From: Dehalococcoidia bacterium
Lineage (GTDB): Bacteria > Chloroflexota > Dehalococcoidia > Lucifugimonadales > Lucifugimonadaceae
Length of the DNA: 64,000 nucleotides
Assembly: GCA_022824185.1 (NCBI GenBank)
Contig: JAJEAU010000016.1
Location: 1-64,000, forward strand
Direction of reading: 5' to 3'
Made by a program: the position numbers and the translations under genes. The first letter of the stretch is position 1, and every line of letters begins with the position of its first letter. Below the pieces are notes generated by a model. The model made no database searches. It saw nothing but the letters and a program-made list of their open reading frames with translations, and was not told the DNA's origin. This document shows, in pieces, positions 49,527 to 53,929 of this stretch.

Positions 49527-50759
49527 TCATATTTTCACTCGTCTGAATGCTATCCAAATGGCGACGTCGTAGGCGAGTTTCAGCGTTCCTGAGACGATCC
49601 ATGGAGTTGTGGTGACTGCTCCTGCCCAGAGCCAGCCGGTTACGGTGGCGGAAGGGATACGTCCGAGGCCACGCCCGAGGTTGGCGGATCCTGCCATGAT
49701 CGGGTGCTCGTCGGGTTCGGTGATGCCCATCATGTAAGCCTGTCGGGTGGGGACGTCCATCTCGTCGAAAAGGGAGCGGAGGAGCCAGAGGGCGATGGCG
49801 ATGATGACGGTCGGGGCAAAGGCGAAGAGGATGAGGGCGATGTTGGAGATGACTTGTGTGAAGACGAGGGTGTTGAGGAGTCCGAGGCGTTTTGCGACGG
49901 CTGGGGCAAGGGCGAGGGAGATCATGTTGAGGGCTTGTGCGGCGATGATCAGAGCAGCGATGGCCGCGGCGGAGAGTCCGAATTTGGTGAATAGCCAGAA
50001 GCTGAGGAAGGATTCGAAGATCATGCCTCCGGCGAATGAATCGACGGCGAAGAGGCCGGAGAGTTTGAGGATCGGTTTTCGGTCTCGGGCTTTGAATGGA
50101 TTGACGAGGAAGGGTTGGTCTTGCTCGTGTTGGGTTGGCGAGTTGGTCTTTGAAGAGAGGAATAGGTAGACGAGGGAGGCGATGATGTGAAGGGCGACGT
50201 ATAGCCAGAGGAGGGTGTGGTAGGCGTCGGTGGGGTTCCAGTCGAGGGTTTCGATGAGCAGTGTGGACAGACCGGCTAGGAGCGCTCCGGTTGCGCGTCC
50301 GGCGGCGGACGCGATGGTGAGGATGGAGTAGGCTTTCGTGCGGTTTTCCTGTGGAATGACGGCGGCGATGCCGGTTTGTTCGAGTTGGGTCATGGCTCCC
50401 CAGTGGGCTCCGCTGGCGGCGTAGGAGCCGAAGAAGCCGCCGATGATCAGGAGCCAGAAGCTATCTGTGGAGATGAGGACGACGCCTGCGATGCCTGTGA
50501 TGAGCATGTTGGCGACGGCCCATGTTCGATTTGAGATGGCCCGGTTGGTGAGCATGACGACGAGGGAGAGGAGGAAGCCGCCGGCGAGAGATGCTCCGAA
50601 GATGATGCCGATTTGGGTGTTGGAGACGCCGATGTGGGCGAGGTAGATGACGGCGAGGGCGGCCATGAGCCATTTCGCAGCATCACGGATGAAGCGTCCG
50701 GCGTAGAAGAGGTAGGGGTCGAAGGATGGGCCGCGGGTGGCGGAGATGGTTGACGCCAT
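49527..50759 (-). CDS. MFS transporter
   Basis: A 410-aa, 12-segment carrier. FYAGRFIRDAAKWLMAALAVIYLAHIG is the first part, and LFDEMDVPTRQAYMMGITEPDE is the cytoplasmic loop of a family seen in several MFS permeases. ATG at 50759 is chosen; the frame is open upstream to 51113 but that part (many Lys/Ser/Gln codons over T-rich DNA) is unlikely to be protein. The downstream MOSC gene is 4 bp away and probably cotranscribed. Confidence 0.85.
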   Translation of the reverse strand: MASTISATRGPSFDPYLFYAGRFIRDAAKWLMAALAVIYLAHIGVSNTQIGIIFGASLAGGFLLSLVVMLTNRAISNRTWAVANMLITGIAGVVLISTDSFWLLIIGGFFGSYAASGAHWGAMTQLEQTGIAAVIPQENRTKAYSILTIASAAGRATGALLAGLSTLLIETLDWNPTDAYHTLLWLYVALHIIASLVYLFLSSKTNSPTQHEQDQPFLVNPFKARDRKPILKLSGLFAVDSFAGGMIFESFLSFWLFTKFGLSAAAIAALIIAAQALNMISLALAPAVAKRLGLLNTLVFTQVISNIALILFAFAPTVIIAIALWLLRSLFDEMDVPTRQAYMMGITEPDEHPIMAGSANLGRGLGRIPSATVTGWLWAGAVTTTPWIVSGTLKLAYDVAIWIAFRRVKI

Positions 50760-50899: not shown

Positions 50900-50950
50900 G
50901 TTGTCTGAACTGGGATTTTTGGGATTGGGGGGATTTTTGGGATTTTGTTG
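50900..50950 (+). repeat. 51-bp direct repeat, copy 1
   Basis: Identical over 51 nt to 51920-51970, exactly 1020 bp downstream. Inside, GGATT recurs every 9 nt (50913, 50922, 50931, 50940). The flanks outside the 51 nt are unlike each other. Confidence 0.9.
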
Positions 50951-51087
50951 TTGGTTGTTTGGGGGATTGGTTTTTATTTAGACGCGTTGAAACGTCCGGG
51001 GTTGCCGAACGTGGGCGCTTGGAGCGTCGGGCTTGTCGGTCTTGTTTTTTAGTTTTTTTGGTTTTGCTTATTTGGTAGCTTTGGTTT

Positions 51088-51206
51088 GGGACTTGGTCCC
51101 GGTTGACGTGCATGGGCGGTTTTTAGGTCCGCCCATGGCGTCGGGGTCCCCATTGTCCGGAAGGACATTGCCCTCGCGAGCGAGGGAAACCCGAGGGGTC
51201 GGGTTT
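51088..51206. other. Array of perfect hairpins, possible structured RNA or protein-binding site
   Basis: Consecutive stems: GGGAC-TTG-GTCCC (51088-51100); GACG plus CATGGGCGG (51105-51119) pairing with CCGCCCATG and CGTC (51129-51142); GTCC-GGAA-GGAC (51155-51166), a GNRA-type tetraloop on the plus strand; CCCTCGC-GA-GCGAGGG (51171-51186); AAACCCGA-GGGG-TCGGGTTT (51187-51206). A further CGCCGG/CCGGCG stem lies at 51323-51343. Such density is not expected in coding DNA. Which strand is transcribed is not certain; the promoter at 51911 would give the minus strand. Confidence 0.55.
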
Positions 51207-51800
51207 TCGAGGAATCGCCGCGGTGTAAAAACCGGTGGACTTTGGTCTCGACTGTCGTCTTGACCTTGGTCCTTCGGGCGAAAAATACTTAACTCATTGA
51301 AAAAGTCGAGCGTTGCCGACGTCGCCGGACCGACGGCCCGGCGTGCGGTCAGTGGAAACATCCCGCACGCCATCATTTGGTTCTTGCCCCGCATTAGCGC
51401 TCTGATCTCCCCGCACGACGAAGCGGTTCTGATCTGTTTCGGATAAGAGAAGACCTCGTCCAGGCCTTGAATGGTGTCGAATCCTCGCGGCAGCTTCGCT
51501 CCCGCGTCCCTATTTTGTCTCGCGAACAAAGGTAGGGTTCGTCCATCTGGCTCGTGTTGCGGCTTAAGCAGTATATCGCCGCGCCTGAACCTTGCAGCTA
51601 CATCCTTCTCCATAACCGGGTTTGTGACCGCGTTGCTCCATGCTCCAGGAGACTTAGACGGGCACCGTCGCGATCGGCGCGCAGTTGTACATCGGGCCTT
51701 GCACCTCGGGGTTCTACACCTCCGGCCTCGGGGCTCTTTCTGCACTTTCGCGCTTCTCATGTGTGATACGCCTCGCGGTTTCATGTCACTTCAATCGACG

Positions 51801-51916
51801 ACAACTGCTGCCAAGTCGCGATCCTCGGCGGCGGCGATCCTCTGGGCGTTGTTTCCCTCGCGATGCGGGTTGAACGCTTGTTGTTAACAGTAACAGATGT
51901 AGTGCGTGCGTGTCAA
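51801..51916 (-). promoter_or_regulatory. Promoter plus leader, copy B of a duplicated block
   Basis: Minus-strand TTGACA (51911-51916), a spacer with the CGCACTAC motif, and TACTGT (51887-51892) as a weaker -10 at 18-nt spacing. The block is the same length as copy A (115-230) and aligns along it. It abuts the second 51-bp direct repeat. It would drive transcription into the hairpin-rich block. Confidence 0.5.
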
Positions 51917-51919
51917 GAT

Positions 51920-51970
51920 GTTGTCTGAACTGGGATTTTTGGGATTGGGGGGATTTTTGGGATTTTGTTG
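51920..51970 (+). repeat. 51-bp direct repeat, copy 2
   Basis: Identical to 50900-50950, with the same 9-nt periodic GGATT. It starts 4 nt after the TTGACA of promoter block B. Confidence 0.9.
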
Positions 51971-52005: not shown

Positions 52006-52065
52006 TCTGGCCCCGCTCCGCCCCGGCCCTCACCCTAGCCCTCTCCCGCCCAGCGGGAGAGGGGA
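52006..52065. repeat. REP-like palindromic repeat, copy 2 of 3
   Basis: The 60-nt unit matches 291-350 at 59 positions, with the same 11-bp perfect stem. As in the first copy it follows the promoter-leader block in the same order and orientation. Confidence 0.85.
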
Positions 52066-52094: not shown

Positions 52095-52964
52095 CTAGGT
52101 TCGAAGTTTGGATCGGATGGATTTTTCGAATTCGGTAATCGTGACTGGGGTGCCGCCCGTCAGACCTTCGGTAGCTCGTTCCAAGGTAGTCACGTGGACT
52201 TTGTGTGGGGTCAGATTGAAGGGCTCGCCGGATGCGGATTGTTCAAATTTGACGGTGAACCAAGCGATGTCACCGCTAGAGAGATCGTCGACAGTTTCCA
52301 TGTGCCCCAACGAGTCGTAGAAGTGCTTGTCAACGACGACGACCATTTTCTTCCCCCAGCGACGGAGAGTCGGGACTTTGATCTGCAGTTGGGGCATGAG
52401 GCGCTTGGGGCCGCTACTACGATAGTCTGGTCGTCTGCTGTGACTTGGGAATGGTGGTCGTGCGCCTTGCCGTGAAAGGACGTTTCGGAACTCCTCGGAC
52501 ATGCTTCTTCCGGAGAAGTAAACCGCTTGGATTTCTACGGCGCACCAATTGAATGCAGCGGCGTCGGATTTTCCGTTGGTGAGAACCATGTCGATGCGTC
52601 CGACGTGGGATTGGGTGTCTGGAGACTTGAGGAACCCGATTTCAGTGGCGATCTCGGGCTTGGGCGTTCCCAAAACCGTTTCGCCGATCCACTTGAATAT
52701 GGTCATATCTTCCTCGAAGCGCCGAGGGCAGAGTATCCTCAAACCGTCTTCGGGGCCTCGGATCTCATTGATTTCACCGGAGACGTTTTCGTACAACCGG
52801 AACGAGCAGACTCCACCCCGTTTGCTACATGGACCGCCGCCGATTCGGAACGGGCACGGGTGGTTCGAGTCGTCCTGTGCAAATTGTCGACGTTGCTTCC
52901 GCGGTAGTTCTAGGTAGGAGTGGCCATACCACTCACCAATACCAAAGCGTCGATTAGGGCTCAC
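52095..52964 (-). CDS. NotI-family restriction endonuclease
   Basis: A 289-aa protein. IGEWYGHSYLEL opens it. Cys37, Cys46, Cys53 and Cys79 (HPCPFR, GPCSKRGGVCSF, LRILCPRRF) form a four-Cys metal site like the one in NotI. The nuclease core has Asp125 in GRIDMVLTNG and Glu144-Ile-Gln146 in CAVEIQAVYFSG, the D...ExQ version of PD-(D/E)xK that NotI uses. GTG at 52964 overlaps the TGA of the methylase gene, so the two are translationally coupled. Target site cannot be read from sequence, but an 8-bp GC-rich site is possible by family. Confidence 0.75.
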   Translation of the reverse strand: MSPNRRFGIGEWYGHSYLELPRKQRRQFAQDDSNHPCPFRIGGGPCSKRGGVCSFRLYENVSGEINEIRGPEDGLRILCPRRFEEDMTIFKWIGETVLGTPKPEIATEIGFLKSPDTQSHVGRIDMVLTNGKSDAAAFNWCAVEIQAVYFSGRSMSEEFRNVLSRQGARPPFPSHSRRPDYRSSGPKRLMPQLQIKVPTLRRWGKKMVVVVDKHFYDSLGHMETVDDLSSGDIAWFTVKFEQSASGEPFNLTPHKVHVTTLERATEGLTGGTPVTITEFEKSIRSKLRT

Positions 52965-53929
52965 GACAAGAGCTCGTGCGAGGTAATCAGAAGTTCGTAC
53001 ATGATTTCGTGATGGGTGTTTTTCATAGCGACTTTGGCGAGACGGAACTGTCGGTTTTTCGCCATTGCGACAACTTCTCGGTTTTCGTCGTAGGTCATCA
53101 TGAACTGGCCACGGACTTCAGACATTTGGTCAAAAAGGGCCTGATGATCGATTTCGTTGAAGTTGTAAAGGCGTTTTCCGGCGCGTTTTCCTGCAACGGT
53201 GTACGGAGGATCGATGAAGAAGACAGCGTCTTGTTTGTCTTTGTATCGTTCGACTACGTTGAGTCCGTCGTCCTGAATAAAATCGAAGCGGGAGGCGTGT
53301 CTACCGATCGCGCGTATTCTCTCTGCGATGGTATTGGCGTACCAACGCGATGCGAGACCTTTGCCGTTCTCGCCGCTGTTCATCTTGGAGGCTCCTTTGG
53401 CGATGATTCCTCCCCGATTGATCCGGTTTTTTAACAGCGTGTTGAAGGCGAGGTCTAACTCGTCCAGCGGTTCTTTATTGAATGCACGGCGCACATTTGA
53501 CGGCGTGGGGACGAACCGTTCGACCCTTGCCGCCAGTTCATCAGCGTCTTCGAAAATGCGGGTCCATAGGTTAGACAGCTCGGGATCGATTTCACAAAGC
53601 ACGGCGTTGTCTACTAGGCCGTCCATAACTGCGGTGAGTGATGCAGTAGCGCCACCCGCGAATGGCTCGATGAATAGGACAGGGCGTTTGGGTAGATTTG
53701 CGAGCCAGTGGCGAATTTGCGGGACCAACCATGTTTTGCCCCCTGGGTAGCGCAATGGACTGCGTTGGGGTACCGAGCTGACATTGACGACTCGGTTTGA
53801 GAGGATCGGTATGGTGGAAAGGGTGTTGGTTTGGTCTCTTGTGTCGCCGAGGTTGACCGTTAGCTCTCGGTTTTCGTCGAGAGATGGCAGCCGTTGTTGT
53901 TTTCCTGGTTTAGTCGGGTTTAATGTCAT
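52961..53929 (-). CDS. Adenine-N6 DNA methyltransferase, Dam/D12 class
   Basis: A 322-aa protein. After a hydrophilic N-terminal tail (about 1-52), PLRYPGGKTWLVPQIRHWL and FIEPFAGGATASLTAV are the SAM motifs of the D12 class and AVFFIDPPYTVAG is the catalytic DPPY. It should protect host DNA from the NotI-like nuclease whose gene overlaps its end by 4 bp. Start ATG at 53929; no clear ribosome site, so a later start near the YPGGK core is possible. Confidence 0.88.
   Translation of the reverse strand: MTLNPTKPGKQQRLPSLDENRELTVNLGDTRDQTNTLSTIPILSNRVVNVSSVPQRSPLRYPGGKTWLVPQIRHWLANLPKRPVLFIEPFAGGATASLTAVMDGLVDNAVLCEIDPELSNLWTRIFEDADELAARVERFVPTPSNVRRAFNKEPLDELDLAFNTLLKNRINRGGIIAKGASKMNSGENGKGLASRWYANTIAERIRAIGRHASRFDFIQDDGLNVVERYKDKQDAVFFIDPPYTVAGKRAGKRLYNFNEIDHQALFDQMSEVRGQFMMTYDENREVVAMAKNRQFRLAKVAMKNTHHEIMYELLITSHELLS

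Follow-up and report, generated by a model that had tools for sequence, protein, structure and literature searches.

What is the dense run of hairpins at 51088-51343 in the 64,000-nucleotide stretch of Dehalococcoidia DNA analysed here (the window)? The first-pass annotation suggested a possible structured RNA, perhaps the end of a transcript from a promoter at 51911, or else a protein-binding array of palindromes. The run itself is confirmed by direct reading and an inverted-repeat search, which find five stems in a row at 51088-51206: a small GGGAC/GTCCC hairpin (51088-51100, minus strand), GACG..CATGGGCGG/CCGCCCATG..CGTC (51105-51142, earlier described as a 13-bp stem and containing a bulge), GTCC-GGAA-GGAC (51155-51166), CCCTCGC/GCGAGGG (51171-51186), and AAACCCGA/TCGGGTTT (51187-51206). 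It is likewise confirmed by a shuffle test, in which the predicted fold of 51080-51380 beats 100 of 100 dinucleotide shuffles on both strands (z of -3.7 on the plus strand and -4.2 on the minus strand). Two details of the original description change. The stem with the GGAA tetraloop is present at 51155-51166, but on the minus strand, which we infer to be the transcribed one, the loop would read UUCC in RNA. A hairpin is also present at 51323-51343, but it represents the conserved 7-bp hairpin of 51315-51338 read in a shifted register.

Comparison of related copies indicates that the hairpin cluster forms the 3' tail of a putative minus-strand RNA gene of about 0.9 kb. The whole element, from promoter to 3' box, spans 50981-51916 (minus strand), its left boundary being defined by the junctions of copies C12 and L036 and its right boundary by the point at which shared sequence ends at TTGACA. 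The repeat is thus about 0.94 kb long, with a predicted transcript of about 900 nt. Copies start, in minus-strand orientation, with a TTGACA promoter and finish with a subfamily-specific hairpin followed by AACRCGYC. In the window copy the -35 box TTGACA lies at 51911-51916, and most copies with enough upstream DNA have TTGACA/T/C at this position upstream of module 2. After a 17-nt spacer, the -10 position (51888-51893) reads TTACTG, while most sister copies of subfamily 1 have TTGACA-N17-TTAATA; with this degenerate -10 sequence, the promoter of the window copy may be weak. The promoter of the element was absent from the output of a simple promoter scan. At the other end lie a 3' hairpin (50992-51012), replaced in other subfamilies by a hairpin of different sequence at the same place, and the 3' box CAACGCGTC (50981-50989; AACRCGYC, also given as AACGCGYC). 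The 3' hairpin is not followed by a long U run, and termination there may fail. On sequence grounds only, the element has the promoter and 3' end signal of a structured noncoding RNA gene, and we infer its transcription from the promoter-like sequence. The position of the cluster in the 3' tail, together with the promoter at 51911-51916 and the 3' hairpin and box at 50981-51012 that are common to the copies, supports the proposal that these hairpins are the end of a transcript from 51911.

Between its two ends the element appears to consist of a folded core closed by a long-range helix, P1, and a tail that tolerates insertions. The 5' strand of P1, GAGGATCGCCGC (51831-51842), is predicted to pair with the 3' strand GCGGCGATTCCTC (51209-51221), an assignment derived from the RNAalifold structure of another subfamily and from a cognate-pair test. 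The same test places a second helix, P2, whose 5' strand (51811-51824) pairs inside the region 51238-51259 in the cognate duplex. Module 1 (51546-51605), with the arrangement GGATGTAGCTGCAAGGTTC-hairpin-CACGAGCCAGA, is kept in subfamilies 1 and 2 of the window's own genome and is recognisable in other subfamilies; its hairpin covaries, being GCGGC/GCCGC in the window copy versus GGGGC/GCCCC in the congener G006. A variable region (51472-51545) separates module 1 from core 2. It is missing in copies C10 and C18, contains palindromic inserts elsewhere, and carries long inserts in copies of G004 and G005; in one G005 copy (L081, G005:883000-884600), short tandem-like repeats, CCGTCATTACCGACGAG, run through it. 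Module 2 (51298-51431) is a core with five predicted helices and provided the basis of the search models R1 and R2. It contains the 7-bp hairpin at 51315-51338, the conserved loop of which is GUCUGGCRA, with a C variant in the window copy. All of these features were assigned on the minus strand.

Evidence for a folded RNA comes from the pattern of substitutions among copies. RNAalifold analysis of 23 copies of module 2 yielded helices with compensatory changes. In the structure named for the A2 module, 94.6% of cells are paired and changes on both sides occur in 10 of 24 pairs (44 such cells); slid partners are only 26-52% paired, and none of 500 shuffles is as good, although relatedness among copies inflates shuffle statistics of this kind and weight was therefore put on agreement between separate subfamilies. 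Among 41 distinct sequences of the main subfamilies, the 7-bp hairpin is 97.2% paired, with 42 double-change cells and again no equal among 500 shuffles. A separate group of 12 sequences, from subfamilies of G003, G004 and G005, also gave many covarying pairs in RNAalifold, with the whole core closed by P1. Furthermore, when 18 representatives were compared, the 5' and 3' strands of P1 and P2 paired better with their own partners than in permuted combinations (0 of 20,000 permutations). Covariation thus goes beyond the controls, in the manner of a structured noncoding RNA gene, and these compensatory changes in homologues support the proposed structured RNA as far as sequence can. We conclude that the element probably represents a multicopy family of structured noncoding RNA genes, with a probability of roughly 0.88, a figure that does not cover any role in trans.

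Two explanations that dispense with such an RNA were considered. The hairpins could be incidental to a real protein gene, since all six subfamily-1 copies of the window's genome keep the minus-strand frame at 51068-51784 open. Divergence among these copies is nevertheless even over the codon (7.7, 8.0, and 6.7% at positions 1, 2, and 3), without excess at the third position, and six of seven homologues in G006 contain 4-9 stops in this frame, while covariation tracks base pairs rather than codons. A protein gene is accordingly rejected as exceedingly improbable. The first-pass annotation had staked its RNA reading on compensatory changes in homologues and on this frame not being conserved as protein; the changes are present, the frame is unconserved, and the RNA reading survives. 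Alternatively, REP-like palindromes might merely have clustered at this locus without being part of any larger RNA. A palindromic repeat at 51148-51206 does account for three of the reported hairpins, and GGGCGG..CCGCCC at 51105-51142 is a second one, both on the minus strand in the 3' tail beyond P1. A motif of the first is also found on its own between genes in four congeners (G001, G002, G004, and G005), and by exact pattern in only three of six subfamily-1 copies. A palindrome related to the second stands alone both within the variable region of L132 and upstream of a copy in G006; other copies have similar palindromes in the variable stretch that separates module 1 from core 2. The earlier notion of a palindrome array therefore holds partly and in another sense, in that short interspersed palindromes account for two of the stems, and one of these is found on its own in intergenic DNA. 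These palindromes are, however, inserts in a far larger element whose core covaries without them, and the C18 copy lacks the first repeat, so that a palindrome cluster with no larger RNA is highly improbable. The high density of hairpins is instead attributable to peripheral regions that tolerate insertions and accumulate small palindromes.

The copies form a family of many members and several subfamilies that, as far as searched, is confined to one genus. The window's own genome (G000) holds five more copies that are nearly full in length, at about 91% identity, together with diverged copies that have the ends and a few internal modules in common. All seven genomes examined of the genus, the window's and six congeners, carry the element; we take these genomes to be those of SAR202 bacteria, most of them from sponges. 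The closed genome G005 (OX638325) has 17 matches, and the fragmented genomes G000 and G006 have 25 and 29, respectively, partial copies at contig ends included. Many contigs of G000, G002, and G006 are cut off within nearly identical copies of a single subfamily, which shows that the draft assemblies break at the element. No convincing match was found outside the genus among 250 genomes of the order, nor did an exact-pattern scan that covered 84,980 species reveal a convincing member there; one degenerate pattern caught only the three subfamily-2 copies, since its spacing fitted no others. Several candidates were set aside. Matches of R1 and R2 in other genera of the family or order (E 0.002-0.09) looked like chance in those inspected. 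In a genome of another family of the order (G153; L235, 1080-1140), the hairpin GCUUAUG-GUCUGGCAA-CAUGAGC fits the conserved loop, but reading of the DNA around it revealed no other module, and the sole exact-pattern match outside the Chloroflexi lies inside a putative helicase-like (Cas3-like) coding sequence.

What these RNAs might do is a separate question, to which the distribution of copies between species is relevant. Copy locations differ between species; G004 and G005 have at least five sites in common, and several flanks common to different species hold elements of different subfamilies. At a 2-hydroxyacid dehydrogenase gene, G005, G006, and G000 each carry a co-oriented element, of three different subfamilies, while G004 has both flanks, about 135 bp apart, and no element between them, an empty site. 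The interiors of L140 and L142 are 99% identical, and their promoters, P1 strands, and tails differ. We read this pattern as spread by insertion together with gene conversion between copies. The element could accordingly be a selfish mobile one, whose folded RNA or single-stranded DNA would serve its own spread by means of an enzyme encoded elsewhere. Multiple copies, sites that differ between species, the one empty site, near-identical copies at contig ends, and conserved end motifs all agree with this explanation, as do restriction to a genus and recent homogenisation. It is nonetheless rather unlikely. Aligned ends revealed no terminal inverted repeats or target-site duplication, although at the empty site the flanks have diverged too far for a duplication to be delimited. 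No associated gene came to light, species retain elements at orthologous positions, and covariation in many helices, with a promoter in most copies, exceeds the needs of a passive element.

The neighbouring genes bear on a second possibility, that the element is a very large 5' regulatory leader of the downstream gene, acting for instance through control of read-through. In the window, a co-oriented gene for an MFS-like transporter (49527-50759, minus strand; identified by sequence) starts 221 nt after the element; it has orthologues in all six congeners, and the DNA beyond it in the congeners contains no element where readable. In 27 cases the downstream gene, identified by Pfam, by tblastn to a neighbour's orthologue, as the conserved MFS gene, or as 16S rRNA, runs in the same direction as the element, and in seven it is opposed (convergent), or about 21 versus 6 when evident orthologues are collapsed by hand (hand-computed two-sided binomial, about 0.006). 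In one case (L154, G006:C18:51800-54200) the element stands directly upstream of a co-oriented 16S rRNA gene. The bias, and the co-oriented elements of three subfamilies at the dehydrogenase gene, favour a role in cis. Against it, there are the seven convergent cases, and the downstream genes are unrelated (polA, rpsP, acetyl-CoA synthetase, an rRNA operon, a glycosyltransferase, and others), so that the element is not always found co-oriented upstream of a gene of related function. In addition, the G005 dehydrogenase gene keeps a conserved promoter-like stretch after the element, and the RNA has its own terminal hairpin and box. We therefore regard a cis-acting leader as unlikely. The orientation bias may reflect a role in cis, or it may have arisen because the element inserts next to a dispersed repeat which is itself found upstream of promoters. 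Such a 48-bp repeat (..ATCCCAGTTCAGACAAC) is located at 51920-51967, just upstream of the element's promoter, and a second identical copy lies beyond its 3' end at 50900-50947. Relatives of this repeat immediately precede many element promoters, as well as some gene promoters, in congeners, and another dispersed repeat, CTGGCCCCGC..CCCTCACCCTAGCCCTCTCCCGCCCAGCGGGAGAGGGGA (52010-52065 in the window; L028-L033), follows it at several copies. Farther upstream, 52095-53929 holds an adjacent pair of minus-strand open reading frames, the second resembling a DNA adenine methylase, and possibly a restriction-modification pair.

Our first choice among the roles, held tentatively and at somewhat less than even odds, is an ornate RNA acting in trans. 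The RNA would be transcribed and act as a folded molecule, in a ribonucleoprotein or as a self-assembling RNA in the manner of OLE, ROOL, and GOLLD, and several redundant copies would be kept and partly homogenised by gene conversion. This role is preferred because most copies with readable upstream DNA keep the promoter and because the core is under base-pair constraint whatever the neighbour. A little more speculatively, the family could be a new class of large structured bacterial RNA, whose paralogues swap interiors by gene conversion at fixed sites and serve a new function in SAR202, for example as a self-assembling or ribonucleoprotein particle; none of the papers searched describes an RNA of this kind from SAR202. 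Few large ornate RNAs are known from bacteria, and what they do is poorly understood. With 17 copies in one closed genome, many subfamilies, and strong covariation, the family offers an unusually rich alignment from which to solve the fold and makes a clear target for sponge metatranscriptomics, and it would exemplify a bacterial family of large RNA genes evolving by concerted exchange between dispersed copies.

Among known systems, OLE, ROOL, and GOLLD are the nearest in kind, although membership in them fails on the Rfam models and, for ROOL and GOLLD, also on the phage and tRNA context. Rfam gave no family match over the whole window at the gathering threshold, or for elements of several subfamilies at E values up to 0.5-5, and the covariance models of GOLLD, ROOL, and OLE gave none. 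Matches to CRISPR-DR29 and mir-2545 fell far below the gathering score, and an SSU rRNA match in L154 reflects the genuine 16S gene that follows the element. REP/BIME-type repeats resemble the two hairpin units in being short, palindromic, dispersed, and intergenic, but here they sit within an element ten times as long, one with a promoter and a covarying core. In being a large folded RNA present as a dispersed repeat, the element also resembles ORF-less group II introns and other non-autonomous mobile RNAs. Unlike such introns, the element is intergenic and no splicing from a gene was seen, and Rfam models detected no catalytic core of a group I or II intron at E values up to 0.5-5. GOLLD RNAs exceed 800 nt in many members and are highly structured and noncoding, of unknown function, with one conserved and one less conserved region (PMC12286853). 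The element, too, is large, highly structured, and noncoding, with one conserved and one less conserved region; it differs in lacking an Rfam match and in occurring in many copies per chromosome. ROOL RNAs, of about 0.6-0.9 kb, have elaborate helices, no protein product, and no known function, and are encoded in phages or prophages near tRNA islands (PMC12286853). That setting belongs to ROOL and was not encountered here: the 29 element loci scanned held no tRNA genes, and viral contigs, plasmids, and phages gave no match, which distinguishes the element from GOLLD as well. In its length, elaborate helices, and lack of a protein product, the element nevertheless resembles ROOL. Finally, OLE is an ornate RNA of about 600 nt from Gram-positive extremophiles or anaerobes that works with named Oap proteins and has its own gene on the bacterial chromosome (PMC9723947, PMC12286853). 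Such hosts and the Oap partners are features of OLE, whose Rfam model the element does not match, but the element is likewise ornate and likewise has a chromosomal gene of its own.
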